Shown: piece after piece, positions 36,727-43,330 of the stretch
Position numbering within the stretch: position 1 is the stretch's first letter
How the letters are laid out: the number at the start of each line of letters is the position of its first letter
Source: Candidatus Uhrbacteria bacterium
GTDB lineage: Bacteria > Patescibacteriota > Patescibacteriia > JACQRZ01
Direction: 5' to 3'
Assembly: GCA_016188385.1 (NCBI GenBank)
Contig: JACPHV010000030.1
Span: 1 to 46,608 of the forward strand
DNA: 46,608 nt
Position numbers and translations under genes: made by a program
Notes under the pieces: model-generated
Database searches by the model: none
Told to the model about the DNA's origin: nothing
What the model saw: only the letters and a program-made list of their open reading frames with translations

Positions 36727-38676
36727 TTATGTTCGAGACTTCCGAGTTCTTTTTTCAACAATAGTACGTATCGCGTCACGAAGCAAAATCGCTTTTTCAA
36801 AATCCAGACGCTCAACAGCCGCGCGCATCTCCTCTTGCAGCGCGACGAGATTCTTTCGCGCGTCAGATTTCACCGACTCCACGATTTCTCCCGGCAAAAA
36901 GGATGTTTCCACTTTTTTCTTGATACTTGCGGGAGTAATGCCATACTCCTTGTTATATTGTATCTGGATCGCTCGGCGCCTCTCGGTCTCCTCGATCGCT
37001 TTTTTCAATGACCCTGTCATGGTATCCGCGTACATCACCACGCGCCCATCCGCATGACGCGACGCGCGCCCGATCGTCTGTATCAAACTTGTCGCATTCC
37101 GCAAAAACCCTTCTTTGTCCGCATCCAATATCGCAACAAGCTCTACCTCCGGTATATCAAGACCTTCACGCAATAAGTTAATACCGACCAAGACATCATA
37201 CACGCCGAGCCGAAGATCTTTGATCAATGCCGCGCGGTCGATGGTATCAATCTCACTGTGCAGATAACGCGCTTTCACGTCATGCTCGGTAAGATATTCA
37301 GAAAGCTCTTCGGCGGAACGCTTCGTCAACGTGGTTACAAGCACGCGACTTCCCTTTCGTACTGTTACCGCTATTTCAGAACACAGGTCGGCAATGTACC
37401 CTTTGATCGGTCTTACCGTGACAGTCGGATCCAATAAGCCCGTAGGGCGAACAACCTGTTCGACTACTTGGCCGCTGCTTTGGGTCTCATACGAATCCGG
37501 CGTCGCGCTCACGAATATCGTATGATCGAGATAGGATTCAAATTCCGGGAATGTCAGCGGACGATTATCATACGCGGAAGGAAGGCGAAAACCATAATCC
37601 ACGAGATTCCTTTTTCGCGCATAATCGCCGCGGTGCATACCCTGTATTTGCGGGATGGTGGCATGACTCTCATCTATGCAAATCAAAAATTCCTTGGAAA
37701 AAGGATTGGAACGAAAAAAATCAAGCAAACAAAAAGGCGGTTTACCCATCGGACGTCCGTCAAAGTGCCGGGAATAATTTTCGATACCCTTGCAGTATCC
37801 AAGCTGTTCAATCATCTCTAAATCGTACTGCGTCCTCTGCTCCAAACGATGCGCCTCCAGCATTCCGAGTTGCGGCAAACGCGTACGGAGTTCCTCACGA
37901 ATTGACGAAATTGCCGATTTCCGCTTTTCCTCGGGAGCCACAAACGGCTTTGCGGGATAGATATGCGCGATCTGTGTTTTTGATGTTTCATCGAGTGAAA
38001 TCGGATCTAACAACGCGATTGACTCAACTTCATCGTCAAAAAATTCAAAACGATATATGTCGCCGCCAAATCCCTGCATGACATCTACCGTATCGCCGCG
38101 AACGCGAAAGCGTCCCGCGCGAAGTTCGGTATCATTGCGCTCATATAACGCGTCAACAAGTTTGGAAAGAAATGCGTGGCGTCCGATACGGTCTGCCTGC
38201 GATATGGTAATCTTGCTTTCCATAAAATCATGCGGACTTCCGAGACCATAGATACATGATACCGAAGCGATCACAATGACATCGGGACGGCTTACGAGAG
38301 AGGCCGCGGCTTCCATCCGCAACTGTTCGATTCTCTCGTTGATTTGAGTCTCTTTTTCTATGTAGGTATCGGTCTGTGGAAGATAGCTTTCCGGAAGATA
38401 ATAATCATAGTAGGAAACGAAATAGCATACTTTATTTTTAGGAAAAAAATTGCGGAACTCCGTGTAGAGTTGTGCCGCAAGCGTTTTATTATGCGCAATA
38501 ACGATAGTGGGTATCTGCAGCTGCTCGATCACGCAAGACAGTGTGTATGTTTTACCGGAACCGGTAATTCCGAGAAGTGTTTGCCGATCAAAGCGATGAA
38601 AGCCATCCGTTAACGATCGGATGGCTTTCGGCTGATCCCCCGCCGGTTTGAATTGAGAAACGAGTTTGAATTTCAT
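36727..38676 (-). CDS. uvrB: Excinuclease ABC subunit B
   Basis: 'LLGITGSGKTYTLSCVIEQ', 'YDYYLPESYLPQTDTYIEKE', 'IDESHATIPQIQGMHRGDYARKRNLVDYGFRLPSAYDNRPL', C-terminal UVR motif. Confidence 0.98.
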   Translation of the reverse strand: MKFKLVSQFKPAGDQPKAIRSLTDGFHRFDRQTLLGITGSGKTYTLSCVIEQLQIPTIVIAHNKTLAAQLYTEFRNFFPKNKVCYFVSYYDYYLPESYLPQTDTYIEKETQINERIEQLRMEAAASLVSRPDVIVIASVSCIYGLGSPHDFMESKITISQADRIGRHAFLSKLVDALYERNDTELRAGRFRVRGDTVDVMQGFGGDIYRFEFFDDEVESIALLDPISLDETSKTQIAHIYPAKPFVAPEEKRKSAISSIREELRTRLPQLGMLEAHRLEQRTQYDLEMIEQLGYCKGIENYSRHFDGRPMGKPPFCLLDFFRSNPFSKEFLICIDESHATIPQIQGMHRGDYARKRNLVDYGFRLPSAYDNRPLTFPEFESYLDHTIFVSATPDSYETQSSGQVVEQVVRPTGLLDPTVTVRPIKGYIADLCSEIAVTVRKGSRVLVTTLTKRSAEELSEYLTEHDVKARYLHSEIDTIDRAALIKDLRLGVYDVLVGINLLREGLDIPEVELVAILDADKEGFLRNATSLIQTIGRASRHADGRVVMYADTMTGSLKKAIEETERRRAIQIQYNKEYGITPASIKKKVETSFLPGEIVESVKSDARKNLVALQEEMRAAVERLDFEKAILLRDAIRTIVEKRTRKSRT

Positions 38677-38706: not shown

Positions 38707-39498
38707 CTATCTATGGCGCGAGTTCAATGGTTGGGCGATCGTCATGATATTCTTTCCATTCCACCAACGCGCGCGTACTCCGTCTCGAATGTAATATGAT
38801 CGTTTTATCGTATATCCGGCTTCATGGAGCAATGAACGCAATGCGCGGACCGTGTATGCGTGATAATAAAGGTGTCCTTTCACGCCTTCGCTTTTCCATT
38901 CCGTAATGATATCATTGATGCCAAGATCAAAATGGGAAATGCCATACTCCTTTTCCCATGGCAACAGCGCGAAAGATAACCTCCTGCTCAAACCGCTCCA
39001 TGCAGTCTTTGGCCCCTTGTCCAATCGCCAGAGATTCCAATTCTCCATGCAGAGCAAACCATTCGGCAAGAGAAATTGCCGCGCTCTCTTTAAGGCAGCA
39101 AGCGCTTGGCGGCGGCGGGGAATATGATGAAACGACGCGACCATGAATATCGCATGAAATTTTTTACCGCGCAATTCCTGAATATGGTCGAGGGAGAGAA
39201 TATCTCCAACGATAAATCGCGGCTCGAGCGGATGCGCGTGATATGCCGTTTCAGCTCGCGCGATGAGCGAACGGGAAGCATCGATCCCGACATACGCGAT
39301 GCTTTTGTGGGCTAGATAAGAAAAAAGCCGTCCGTTTCCGCAACCGATGTCAAGCACGCTATCACCTTCTTTGACAGACGAGTCAAACACGGTAAAATCA
39401 TTCCAGTGCTTCCGGCGTGTTCGATCAAATTGATCCGCGATCCGTTCGTACCCTTCGCGGGTCATGACGGTAAGCGCGTGAGCTGTATGCGGCTTCAT
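38707..39498 (-). CDS. Class I SAM-dependent methyltransferase, Trm9/ALKBH8-like
   Basis: 'YERIADQFDRTRRKHWNDFTVF', 'VLDIGCGNGRLF', 'VASFHHIPRRRQALAALKRA', 'HLYYHAYTVRALRSLLHEAGYTI' (order and motifs resemble Trm9). Confidence 0.75.
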   Translation of the reverse strand: MKPHTAHALTVMTREGYERIADQFDRTRRKHWNDFTVFDSSVKEGDSVLDIGCGNGRLFSYLAHKSIAYVGIDASRSLIARAETAYHAHPLEPRFIVGDILSLDHIQELRGKKFHAIFMVASFHHIPRRRQALAALKRARQFLLPNGLLCMENWNLWRLDKGPKTAWSGLSRRLSFALLPWEKEYGISHFDLGINDIITEWKSEGVKGHLYYHAYTVRALRSLLHEAGYTIKRSYYIRDGVRARWWNGKNIMTIAQPLNSRHR

Positions 39499-41187
39499 AT
39501 GAAACAATCACTTAAAGAATCTTCAGCTTCTATCATAGAACGCTTGGTGTCGCAAGGCAATTTTGACAGTGATGCTTTGCATTCGGCGAAGCGGGAATTT
39601 TCCGCAGCCACGAGCATACCCTTTCCGACAAACACGGAACTGCTCGCTGTGTATCGAGGACTTGTTGCCGAGCATACAATCGATTCCCATTCGGAGCTGG
39701 AACGGCTGTTGACGGTCAAACCGATACGATCCCTGTCAGGCGTTGCCATTGTCACGCTGCTGACTATGCCGTATCCGTGCCCGGGAAAATGCATCTACTG
39801 TCCTGATGAAGCACGGATGCCGAAAAGCTATATCGAGACGGAGCCTGCCGCGGCGCGAGCGCTTCGCCTGCAGTTTGATCCGTATGTCCAGACCGCGAAA
39901 CGCATATCCATGCTTGAGGGCAACGGACACCCGGCGGATAAAATTGAGTTGATCATCAAGGGCGGGACATGGTCTTCCTACCCGCCGCCATACCAGCAAT
40001 GGTTTATCAAAGAATGTTTTCGCGCGATGAACCATGCCGCCGATGGCTGTGAGACGATTCGTACCGCCGATGCGCATAATCCTTTTAATCGATTCGAGTC
40101 GACAGAGAAAGCCTCATGGGATGTGCGGACGCTTTTTGAACAACAAGCAATAAATGAAACTGCCGCGCATCGCTGCATAGGACTCACGATTGAGACAAGA
40201 CCTGACTTTATCAGTCCCCGAGAAATTAAACGCCTGCGTATGTTGAGCGTCACTCGCGTGGAACTCGGCGTACAGACGACTGACGATACAATTTTGGAGA
40301 CAATCAAACGGGGACATACTGCCGATACTGTCGTACGGGCGACAAAACTTCTCAAGGACGCGGGTTTCAAAGTGGATTTTCATCTCATGCCAGGATTGCC
40401 GGGAGCGACTCCGAAAAGCGATCTTGCGGACGCTCGAAAGATATTTTTTTCCGCCGATTTCGGACCCGATACCGTCAAATTGTATCCTACCGTGGTAACT
40501 CCGAATACCGTACTGGAAGAATGGTGGAAACAAGGACGGTATGAGCCGTATGACACGCAGACTGTCATTGAATTGCTTGCCTCCATCAAAGCAATCGTAC
40601 CGCCTTATGTTCGTCTGTCCCGTGTGATACGGGATATTCCTTCTGATAATATCTCTGCCGGTAATAAAGTGACAAACCTGCGGGAGGTCGTGCATGAATA
40701 TATGAAAAAACGGAATATGCGGTGCCGCTGTTTGCGGTGTCGGGAAACCGGACATCAAAACGATTCAACATTGAATGGCCGCTTATCAGAAATCACATAT
40801 AAGGAGCGATCCTATGCCGCTTCGGGAGGAATGGAATATTTTTTGAGTTATGAAAGTAAGGATGAATCGATCCTCTATGCGTTTCTGCGACTGCGGCTCC
40901 CGTCGAATGACGGGGAGCGAATTCATCATCTTCTGCCAGAGCTTCGCCGCGCCGCGCTTGTCCGTGAACTTCATACGTATGGACAGCTTGTTCGAATACA
41001 TGCAAAGGATGAAGAATCAACCCAGCACAAGGGATTGGGGAAAAAACTCCTTGAACGCGCAACGACAATCGCGACAGAAAACGGACTTACCAGGATCGCC
41101 GTCATTTCCGGCATTGGCGTACGGGAATATTACCGTCGCGCAGGCTATCGCCTCGAAGGAACTTACATGGTTAAAGCGCTCAATTGA
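39499..41187 (+). CDS. elp3: Elp3-family radical SAM / GNAT tRNA uridine-34 modification enzyme
   Basis: 'PYPCPGKCIYCPDEARMPKSYIETEPAAARALRLQFDPYVQTAKRI', 'GHPADKIELIIKGGTW', 'CRCLRCRETG', GNAT 'KGLGKKLLERA...VISGIGVREYYRRAGYRLEGTYMVK'. Confidence 0.93.
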   Translation: MKQSLKESSASIIERLVSQGNFDSDALHSAKREFSAATSIPFPTNTELLAVYRGLVAEHTIDSHSELERLLTVKPIRSLSGVAIVTLLTMPYPCPGKCIYCPDEARMPKSYIETEPAAARALRLQFDPYVQTAKRISMLEGNGHPADKIELIIKGGTWSSYPPPYQQWFIKECFRAMNHAADGCETIRTADAHNPFNRFESTEKASWDVRTLFEQQAINETAAHRCIGLTIETRPDFISPREIKRLRMLSVTRVELGVQTTDDTILETIKRGHTADTVVRATKLLKDAGFKVDFHLMPGLPGATPKSDLADARKIFFSADFGPDTVKLYPTVVTPNTVLEEWWKQGRYEPYDTQTVIELLASIKAIVPPYVRLSRVIRDIPSDNISAGNKVTNLREVVHEYMKKRNMRCRCLRCRETGHQNDSTLNGRLSEITYKERSYAASGGMEYFLSYESKDESILYAFLRLRLPSNDGERIHHLLPELRRAALVRELHTYGQLVRIHAKDEESTQHKGLGKKLLERATTIATENGLTRIAVISGIGVREYYRRAGYRLEGTYMVKALN

Positions 41188-43330
41188 CGTTCTCGGGAAA
41201 TAATTGCGTTGCCGGAATAATCTCTTCGATCTGCCGTATCCCGCGCGTCCATTTCAGTTGAATTCCCGCAAACGCGATATCCTCAAAGTAATCAAGACGG
41301 ATCGGGTAGCGCTTCCCCGCTTCCAGATATATGCTGCCTGTCGTTCTTTTCATTGGATGCTTTCTCCAATCATCGATTAATTTGGCATTATTCACCCAAA
41401 GGCGGACACCATCGTCAGAATCAATGATAAAAGTATACCGATCGCTCTGACGCGCCTCGATGTATCCTGCCCACCTCACGGAAAACAGATTCGGGTCCAT
41501 CCCCGGAATAGGCGGCCCGTATGCCCAGCGGAAATCGACCACGGGATCGACACGCGTTACTTTCAGGTTGCTGAAATCATGAGAATCGAAATACATGGCA
41601 GTCAAGCCCGTCCCTCTCGAAACTCGCTCTTCAATTGGCGGAACAATACCGCTCAAATCATCCAAAGCATCTTGCAGCGAAAGGCTTGTATCGCCTTGCA
41701 AAAAACGGGCAATCGCGCTTTTTGTCGATCCGGTGATGGGAAAACCGCGCCGTTCGTAATACCACGCGAGATCGGCATTGGCATTGATGCTTAAGAGAAA
41801 AACAAAAATGTTGATTTTTTTGTTTCGCAAATCTTCGGAATCACTCGCGGCAAGTAATGCATCGGGAACATATTTCCATGTGGTAAGAAAATCTATGGTC
41901 GTACGCAATGCTTTCAAGAACTCCTTATCTTGCTTCACGCTCTTGCGATCTTGAAATATCTGGAGCGTGACGGCGGTAAAAAGATCGGATCCGAGGGTGC
42001 TGTTTTTTGTCGAATGAGTCGGATACAACGATGCTGTATTCACGCGCAACGGCACTGTGCTGCTGATCGGCAAACGGTTCTGTTGAAGCGACGCATGTTG
42101 ATCAGTCGAGGTGATCACATTGGCGCAGGTGGCGGGCTTGGCTAGATATCCGCACCACGCGTTCCACCATCCGAAACGTTTCTCTCCTTTCTGCATCTCC
42201 AGATACGAAGCGACTCCGATCAAATCGGAAAAACTTTTTATCATGGAGTCATGCCAAAGAAACACATTCCGCTGCGGCGCGCGAGCGAGGAATACCTCAC
42301 TAAGCGCTCTCGCGTACGAAACGGCGAAAGGACGGGCGGGATGATTTACCGTATGGACAAGATCGGTACGCACCATGGGAGAGGGAACTCGCACCGTCTG
42401 CGAGTACGGATCGATCGTAATCTTGCGTATCCGGTTGTCATCAATGACGACGATCCGTTTTCCTCCAAGATCATAGTTCAAATAATCACTCAAAAAAACA
42501 ACAAGGTCCTCATACCGTGCCAACGCAGGCAATGGGTCTGTCCGAAACCGAGCAAGCGTCGCTTGCGTGAAGTGCCATTCGATCGATCCGCATCTGACAC
42601 TGCGTTGCCGCATCAGTTGGGAATAGCTTCGATCGCATGAAGCGCGCGCATGCTGCGAAGGTGCGGATACGGCAGGTTGAACGCCATCGGAAAAATCCGA
42701 TTTTGGTATTAGCAAAGAAATCGGTTCTCGCACGGCAATATACAGGCTCTTGAGATCGGCTTGTTGCCCGTCTGTATTCCAGCATCGTAACGTGACAACG
42801 GAAGGATAAGGAATACTGATTTCAGCTGACCCCGACGGTTGTTTGAGGCCGACCCATTCGGGTATTGTGCCGCCTCCATGGCAAGCAAACGCGTTAACGC
42901 TGTCCCACTGCACGAGTACGCGCTCTGTTTTTAAAACTGATGTCCGATCACTGAGAAAGGTAACTGCGGGCAATGGCAAAGATTCATCCTGGTCATTCGG
43001 GTGTACTACTACGGTGCGCGTCTGCGGCGCTGACGCGAGACCTTCGGGACTCGTACAGGTAAGAGAGTAGGAATAATATCCCGTATTAAGTACGATCGTA
43101 CGCTGGCCTTGCTTCGGGAGGCGTTCTTCAGTGTCGAATGAACCTATGCAAAAAGATGCCGCGGGAGCATTCCAGTCAAGCGTTACCGGAGTGCCGGCGA
43201 TCGCAACATTTGGAAAGATGCCATAGTAAACTGTCGAGCCGCCTTCCTGCGCGAAAAGCTGGCTCGATAAAACAAAAGTTGACAGAGCACATACAAAAAT
43301 TGTTGCAAAAAGAGTGCGCATAGACAGCAA
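41180..43330 (-). CDS. Secreted multidomain protein: Ig-like repeats, M60-like/gluzincin-like central region (uncertain), C-terminal PA14 domain
   Basis: Signal peptide; two Ig-like segments with paired Cys; C-terminal 'GTGLTAMYFDSHDFSNLKVTRVDPVVDFRW...AGYIEARQSDRYTFIIDSDDGVRLWVNNAKLIDDW'. Confidence 0.8.
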   Translation of the reverse strand: MLSMRTLFATIFVCALSTFVLSSQLFAQEGGSTVYYGIFPNVAIAGTPVTLDWNAPAASFCIGSFDTEERLPKQGQRTIVLNTGYYSYSLTCTSPEGLASAPQTRTVVVHPNDQDESLPLPAVTFLSDRTSVLKTERVLVQWDSVNAFACHGGGTIPEWVGLKQPSGSAEISIPYPSVVTLRCWNTDGQQADLKSLYIAVREPISLLIPKSDFSDGVQPAVSAPSQHARASCDRSYSQLMRQRSVRCGSIEWHFTQATLARFRTDPLPALARYEDLVVFLSDYLNYDLGGKRIVVIDDNRIRKITIDPYSQTVRVPSPMVRTDLVHTVNHPARPFAVSYARALSEVFLARAPQRNVFLWHDSMIKSFSDLIGVASYLEMQKGEKRFGWWNAWCGYLAKPATCANVITSTDQHASLQQNRLPISSTVPLRVNTASLYPTHSTKNSTLGSDLFTAVTLQIFQDRKSVKQDKEFLKALRTTIDFLTTWKYVPDALLAASDSEDLRNKKINIFVFLLSINANADLAWYYERRGFPITGSTKSAIARFLQGDTSLSLQDALDDLSGIVPPIEERVSRGTGLTAMYFDSHDFSNLKVTRVDPVVDFRWAYGPPIPGMDPNLFSVRWAGYIEARQSDRYTFIIDSDDGVRLWVNNAKLIDDWRKHPMKRTTGSIYLEAGKRYPIRLDYFEDIAFAGIQLKWTRGIRQIEEIIPATQLFPENVN

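Follow-up and report, generated by a model that had tools for sequence, protein, structure and literature searches.

A divergent gene pair from a Candidatus Uhrbacteria bacterium, encoding the radical SAM acetyltransferase Elp3 and a Trm9-like SAM methyltransferase, is likely to form a minimal two-enzyme wobble-uridine pathway in which cm5U34 would be converted to mcm5U34, with MnmA adding sulfur; the chemistry is inferred. The pair lies in a window of 46,608 nt on the forward strand of contig JACPHV010000030.1 (GCA_016188385.1), from a genome of 1.035 Mb in 46 contigs estimated to be 100% complete. Sequence comparison establishes the enzyme families, their linkage, the dependence of the methyltransferase on Elp3, the lack of MnmG, the near-absence of Trm112 and the presence of MnmA, and the substrate, product and tRNA set of the proposed pathway are inferred from these. 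Drawing on acetyl-CoA and radical SAM chemistry, Elp3 by itself would generate 5-carboxymethyluridine (cm5U34); the divergent methyltransferase would then transfer a methyl group from SAM to the carboxylate, yielding mcm5U34 in the manner of Trm9/ALKBH8 but without Trm112. As MnmA is present, the inferred product is mcm5s2U34 in MnmA-thiolated tRNAs, which would be those for Lys, Glu and Gln. The pair would thus stand in for MnmE/MnmG, of which MnmG is missing and only the MnmG half was looked for.

The best starts are an ATG at 39498 (-) for the methyltransferase and an ATG at 39499 (+) for Elp3, placing the two genes head to head with zero intergenic bases (Table 1). In a genome of the same genus (G001) the equivalent point reads CATAATG and both ORFs open there, so the assigned starts are probably correct. 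The first-pass annotation had described a full-length radical SAM plus GNAT Elp3 back to back with a methyltransferase carrying the motifs YERIADQFDRTR, LDIGCGNGR and HLYYHAY; both ORFs and all three motifs were found as described, and the two-domain assignment was confirmed by a full-length match of Elp3 (P0002) to TIGR01211 (573.6 bits, cut-off 350, profile positions 3-522 of 522). A promoter scan returned a good match, TTGACA-16-TAAAAT at 39371-39398 (+), inside the methyltransferase gene; the number of promoter-like matches in the scan was near the shuffled expectation, so no promoter is claimed. Downstream of the methyltransferase, after a gap of 30 bases and in the same orientation, comes uvrB (36727-38676, -), and the two may be co-transcribed. 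Convergent with elp3 is the gene for a large protein (41180-43330, -) that has a PA14/GLEYA domain and a signal-like N terminus; the 3' ends of these two genes overlap by 8 bases.

Table 1. Features of the divergent pair (window positions) and of asparagine-synthetase-like ORFs at other Elp3 loci (locus positions)
Feature	Position	Strand	Basis
Trm9-like class I SAM methyltransferase, predicted tRNA cm5U34 carboxyl methyltransferase	38707..39498	-	profile, reciprocal search, tree, residues, predicted structure
Asn equivalent to ScTrm9 N271	38749..38751	-	alignment
HLYYHAY, equivalent of Trm9 YRYYHLY (R241 is L, Y243 kept); second strand of predicted two-stranded lid	38854..38874	-	alignment, model
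LDIGCGNGR SAM-binding motif	39328..39354	-	sequence
TRRKHW motif, second residue R31 of P0001 = ScTrm9 R29	39403..39420	-	alignment, 31/31 in Elp3-adjacent set
CATATG, abutting start codons, zero intergenic bases	39496..39501	.	sequence
Elp3, radical SAM + acetyltransferase (KAT/GNAT), predicted cm5U34 synthase	39499..41187	+	TIGR01211, alignment to solved Elp3
CPGKCIYC radical SAM [4Fe-4S] motif of Elp3	39778..39801	+	sequence, alignment
Asparagine-synthetase-like ORF	L222:957-1805		
Asparagine-synthetase-like ORF	L223:1754-2533		
Asparagine-synthetase-like ORF	L232:1539-2324		
Asparagine-synthetase-like ORF	L240:1822-2610		
Asparagine-synthetase-like ORF	L244:4325-4765		
Asparagine-synthetase-like ORF	L245:4210-5031		

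By its sequence, the window's Elp3 is a full-length member of its family, for which synthesis of cm5U34 on tRNA is inferred. The GNAT half is recognised through TIGR01211 and the alignment to solved Elp3 structures, no separate Pfam GNAT match being obtained for this protein. The Fe-S cysteines are retained, and the acetyl-CoA site of Dehalococcoides mccartyi Elp3 (DmcElp3 K77, K193, E386 and Y441) is kept in full as K179, K322, E521 and Y575. Archaeal Elp3 makes cm5U in vitro (PMC5372719, PMC13315578), and outside eukaryotes Elp3 functions without other subunits (PMC5372719, PMC13315578), the archaeal and D. mccartyi proteins being found without the rest of Elongator (PMC6367351, PMC13315578). 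The D. mccartyi enzyme is weakly active in vitro (PMC7663514), which counts against the proposed pathway.

The methyltransferase appears Trm9-like and, with moderate support, closest to Trm9 among the families compared; its methylation of cm5U34 is inferred. As a single sequence it matches only generic Pfam families (Methyltransf_25/11/23), and in such a search Trm9 ranks below several small-molecule enzymes, as would be expected if it were an unrelated UbiE/UbiG-type enzyme sharing a divergent promoter region with elp3 by chance. The profile of the Elp3-linked methyltransferase family (METHYLTRANSFERASE, 23 members), searched against 177,635 PDB sequences, has Yarrowia Trm9 (5cm2) as its best match at 1.7e-26, the alignment covering most of the length from TR..W to past RYYH. 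Reciprocally, Yarrowia Trm9 retrieves the window methyltransferase first in the window's genome (5e-6, the next match at 1e-3), and most of the relatives likewise return the Elp3-adjacent gene at the top. The NCBIfam scores of the window methyltransferase for UbiE, UbiG, CmoA, CmoB, BioC and Tam all fall far short of the curated cut-offs.

Trees were built with these six E. coli enzymes and 17 Patescibacteria methyltransferase paralogues as outgroups; the Trm9 references were fungal only, with no archaeal Trm9, and the S. cerevisiae sequence was verified against 5cm2 (E 2.7e-69), with the letters at all five published residue numbers matching. Fungal Trm9, that of yeast included, falls inside the Elp3-linked clade, and all the E. 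coli enzymes and local paralogues are placed outside it. The clade received an SH-aLRT of 93 in a quick tree, a bootstrap of 94 and an SH-aLRT of 52 in a careful one, and an SH-aLRT of 81 once Chloroflexota sequences were added; the outgroup branches are long and the support is moderate. The first-pass annotation had proposed such a phylogeny and named clustering with UbiE-type enzymes as a refutation, which did not happen: fungal Trm9 groups with the methyltransferase and CmoA/CmoB do not, in agreement with the best PDB profile match and the reciprocal match. Kinship with CmoA/CmoB was rejected on the E. coli references outside the clade and on NCBIfam scores far below cut-off. A UbiE/UbiG-type identity is rejected on the profile, the reciprocal search, the tree and the residues described below; the chance-neighbour reading, largely refuted by the same evidence and opposed by the persistence of the divergent layout in Chloroflexota as well as about 37 families of Patescibacteria, retains hardly any credibility. 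A distinct Trm9-like subclade without adjacent Elp3 was also seen (L104, L106, L107, L116, L119, L122, L125 and L145), most of its genomes having Elp3 elsewhere.

Mutation of R29, H115, R241, Y243 or N271 cripples yeast Trm9 (PMC5372719). Among 31 family members these pocket residues are kept in 31, 23, 24, 18 and 29 sequences, respectively, and further Trm9 positions are kept as well (W145 in 31/31, D163 in 29/31, W168 in 28/31); the residues of both sets are mostly missing from the 17 paralogues and the six E. coli enzymes. At the five pocket positions the window copy reads R, H, L, Y and N, preserving four. An alanine mutant of R241 strongly impairs the yeast enzyme (PMC5372719), and the leucine that replaces it in the window's own lineage is a real caveat to a putative Trm9-type function; H115, R241 and Y243 vary across the family. 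A predicted model (pLDDT 94) places adjacent strands 191-198 and 201-208, the latter containing the YYH motif, at the position of the two-stranded lid described over the Trm9 active site (PMC5372719), although no superposition on 5cm2 was made. Foldseek was non-discriminating: Trm9 (5cm2) ranked 16th by E-value and had the top target-normalised TM-score among the 50 rows listed, the class I fold dominating the ranking and many class I enzymes standing ahead of 5cm2.

These residues bear on whether the methyltransferase might instead modify another translation component (another tRNA position, rRNA or a protein), linked with Elp3 only through translation. Trm9, Bud23, Mtq2 and Trm11 share a Trm112-binding methyltransferase fold in which substrate switches occur (PMC5372719), and the moderate tree support leaves room for such a switch; the Trm9-specific substrate residues, the predicted lid and a near-obligate dependence on Elp3 speak against it, and we regard it as improbable.

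Linkage of the two genes extends far beyond the window. Of 57 relatives from 46 families, 39 gave a methyltransferase match and 37 an Elp3 match at the thresholds of the search; these are nearly the same genomes, and the two genes are mostly adjacent. In a phylum-wide sample, Elp3 was present in 106 of 287 Patescibacteria (about a third), 68 of which carry the methyltransferase within 1.5 kb of Elp3, and all 68 pairs are divergent, spanning about 37 families by a hand count of family codes. This spread is a better argument for linkage than the Fisher p of 4e-44 for co-occurrence at scores of at least 98 bits, which treats genomes as independent and is consequently too small. In a separate locus collection, Elp3 lies in the flank of 68 of 80 methyltransferase loci; on this and on the uniformly divergent orientation, chance adjacency was rejected. 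For the 12 loci without a neighbouring Elp3, ten genomes have Elp3 elsewhere, and no other constant partner was seen at L104, L106, L119, L122, L125 or L145. One of these, L125, is labelled Omnitrophota and comes from a genome without Elp3; by eye, its downstream order of small HU-like, YmdB-like and RNase Y-like genes equals that of the Patescibacteria locus L106, and it may be a misbinned contig.

At scores of at least 110 bits the methyltransferase was detected in 75 genomes, of which 74 also have Elp3 and the remaining one is 78% complete, whereas 29 Elp3 genomes lack the methyltransferase at scores of at least 98 bits. The methyltransferase therefore depends on Elp3 and not the reverse, an asymmetry that would be expected of an enzymatic step downstream of Elp3. 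The same linkage and dependence would also suit a methyltransferase that acts after Elp3 and yields a methyl ester that is only an intermediate, or a different end product (ncm5U by ammonolysis, or another cm5U derivative). A yeast trm9 mutant is reported to accumulate ncm5U and ncm5s2U (PMC3110198), which leaves the order of steps under debate even in yeast, and the variation at H115, R241 and Y243 could be read in the same direction. No second conserved partner is seen beside the pair, however, and mcm5U is the simplest product of a Trm9-type enzyme; this possibility is accordingly held to be unlikely, and mcm5U34 remains the preferred product.

The pair is not confined to Patescibacteria. 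A methyltransferase match at E <= 1e-25 was obtained in 41 of 251 Chloroflexota genomes, and a divergent Elp3 was present at 9/10 and then 10/10 of the loci read (19/20, with G463 counted twice). Adjacency unique to one genome, another outcome that would have spoken against the pairing, is thereby excluded. At locus L214 the Elp3 next to the methyltransferase matches the crystallised D. mccartyi protein (5L7J) without a difference over 108 residues, which means that the best-studied bacterial Elp3, 51% identical to that of the window, also has a divergent Trm9-like neighbour. Trm9 does not occur in the 2020 Elp3 review (PMC7663514), and the 2019 structure paper yielded nothing on the genome context of D. 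mccartyi Elp3; this silence concerns the literature searched, which did not include the original structure paper of 2016, and is no proof that the partner has gone unnoticed.

The surrounding pathway genes were also surveyed. None of the 57 relatives has MnmG, their matches being confined to short N-terminal stretches of 32-34 positions; in the phylum sample 6 of the 287 genomes have it, none of them together with Elp3. The comparison of the pair with mnmG suggested in the first-pass annotation thus found MnmG missing wherever Elp3 occurs in the sample; with 106 Elp3 genomes among 287, such an exclusion alone has a chance expectation of ~6%, and the mutual exclusion is only suggestive. Neither Elp3 nor MnmG was detected at E <= 1e-40 in 175 of the 287 Patescibacteria, where no known C5-U34 pathway is visible. 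MnmA (s2U34) is present in 53 of the 57 relatives, the window's genome among them. Trm112 (PF03966) exceeds the cut-off in two of the 57 genomes and is not found in that of the window. Known Trm9 requires Trm112, and its absence counts against the proposed pathway; as no such partner was found, the methyltransferase is labelled Trm9-like and not Trm9.

Elp3 regions without an adjacent methyltransferase contain an asparagine-synthetase-like protein in six genomes from four families (G077 in f70, G127 and G255 in f82, G197 in f93, G113 and G154 in f92). The protein has 260-283 residues, adjoins Elp3 or lies one gene away, and matches PF00733 only, with no glutaminase domain; its best PDB match is AsnB (1ct9), in the alignment to which the glutamate of GEGSDE is replaced by Q, N or T. 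The G113 copy is cut by the contig end, and this genome additionally has a methyltransferase elsewhere. Among the loci read, the asparagine-synthetase-like gene and the methyltransferase were never found in the same stretch, and other f82 genera carry the methyltransferase at the same position. The enzyme making ncm5U has been described as unknown (PMC6367351). A tentative idea, drawn from context alone and with the odds against it, is that the slot beside Elp3 holds the enzyme that finishes cm5U34, in most lineages the methyltransferase (mcm5U) and in these six genomes a stand-alone asparagine-synthetase-like domain, which as an ATP-dependent amide synthetase would amidate the same carboxylate (ncm5U) and be a candidate for the missing activity. 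At another locus (L227, G228), Elp3 is followed by genes that by eye are QueH-like, Tgt-like and QueA-like; queuosine is another wobble-base pathway.

The proposed pathway resembles the eukaryotic system of Elongator (Elp1-6) with Trm9-Trm112 or ALKBH8-TRMT112 in its Elp3 catalytic subunit, its Trm9-type enzyme and the expected conversion of cm5U to mcm5U. It differs in lacking Trm112, in its head-to-head genes and in thiolation expected from MnmA instead of Ncs6/Urm1; to our knowledge, Elongator subunits have not been described from bacteria. The bacterial MnmE-MnmG system likewise acts at C5 of U34, but with other enzymes and another product (cmnm5U34). In a 2008 survey mcm5U is listed as a eukaryal signature (PMC2584109), and a review from 2020 restricts bacterial Elp3 to a single clade, Dehalococcoides, for whose Elp3 product direct evidence was lacking (PMC7663514); in contrast to this one-clade picture, about a third of the sampled Patescibacteria have Elp3, usually beside a Trm9-like enzyme. 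A literature search for Elp3 in Patescibacteria/CPR gave nothing on point among the matches listed. If the proposal is true, many bacteria share with eukaryotes and archaea a tRNA modification long attributed to those two domains, a large share of bacterial diversity swaps MnmEG for Elongator-type chemistry with a bacterial thiolase, and the role of bacterial Elp3 becomes approachable in a culturable organism, since D. mccartyi carries the pair.

The closest likeness in layout is archaeal, where a lone Elp3 has a Trm9-like partner (Sulfolobus; Haloferax HVO_2888 and HVO_1032/HVO_0574). In S. solfataricus the genes for Elp3 and Trm9 form a cluster (PMC2584109, PMC5372719). Archaeal mcm5s2U was already predicted in 2008 (PMC2584109), and mcm5U has been reported from H. 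volcanii (PMC7663514); archaea thus provide a precedent for this architecture. The mcm5U-type pathway without multisubunit Elongator put forward in the first-pass annotation is hence supported by sequence and context, but its independence of Elongator is not new, being known from archaea (Sulfolobus, 2008) and D. mccartyi. Archaea have a Tuc1-type thiolase (PMC2584109) and Trm112 proteins, whereas the bacterial pair is accompanied by MnmA and no Trm112; as far as the searched literature shows, the novelty lies in this combination with MnmA, the lack of Trm112, the bacterial breadth, the head-to-head layout and the presence of the pair in D. mccartyi.
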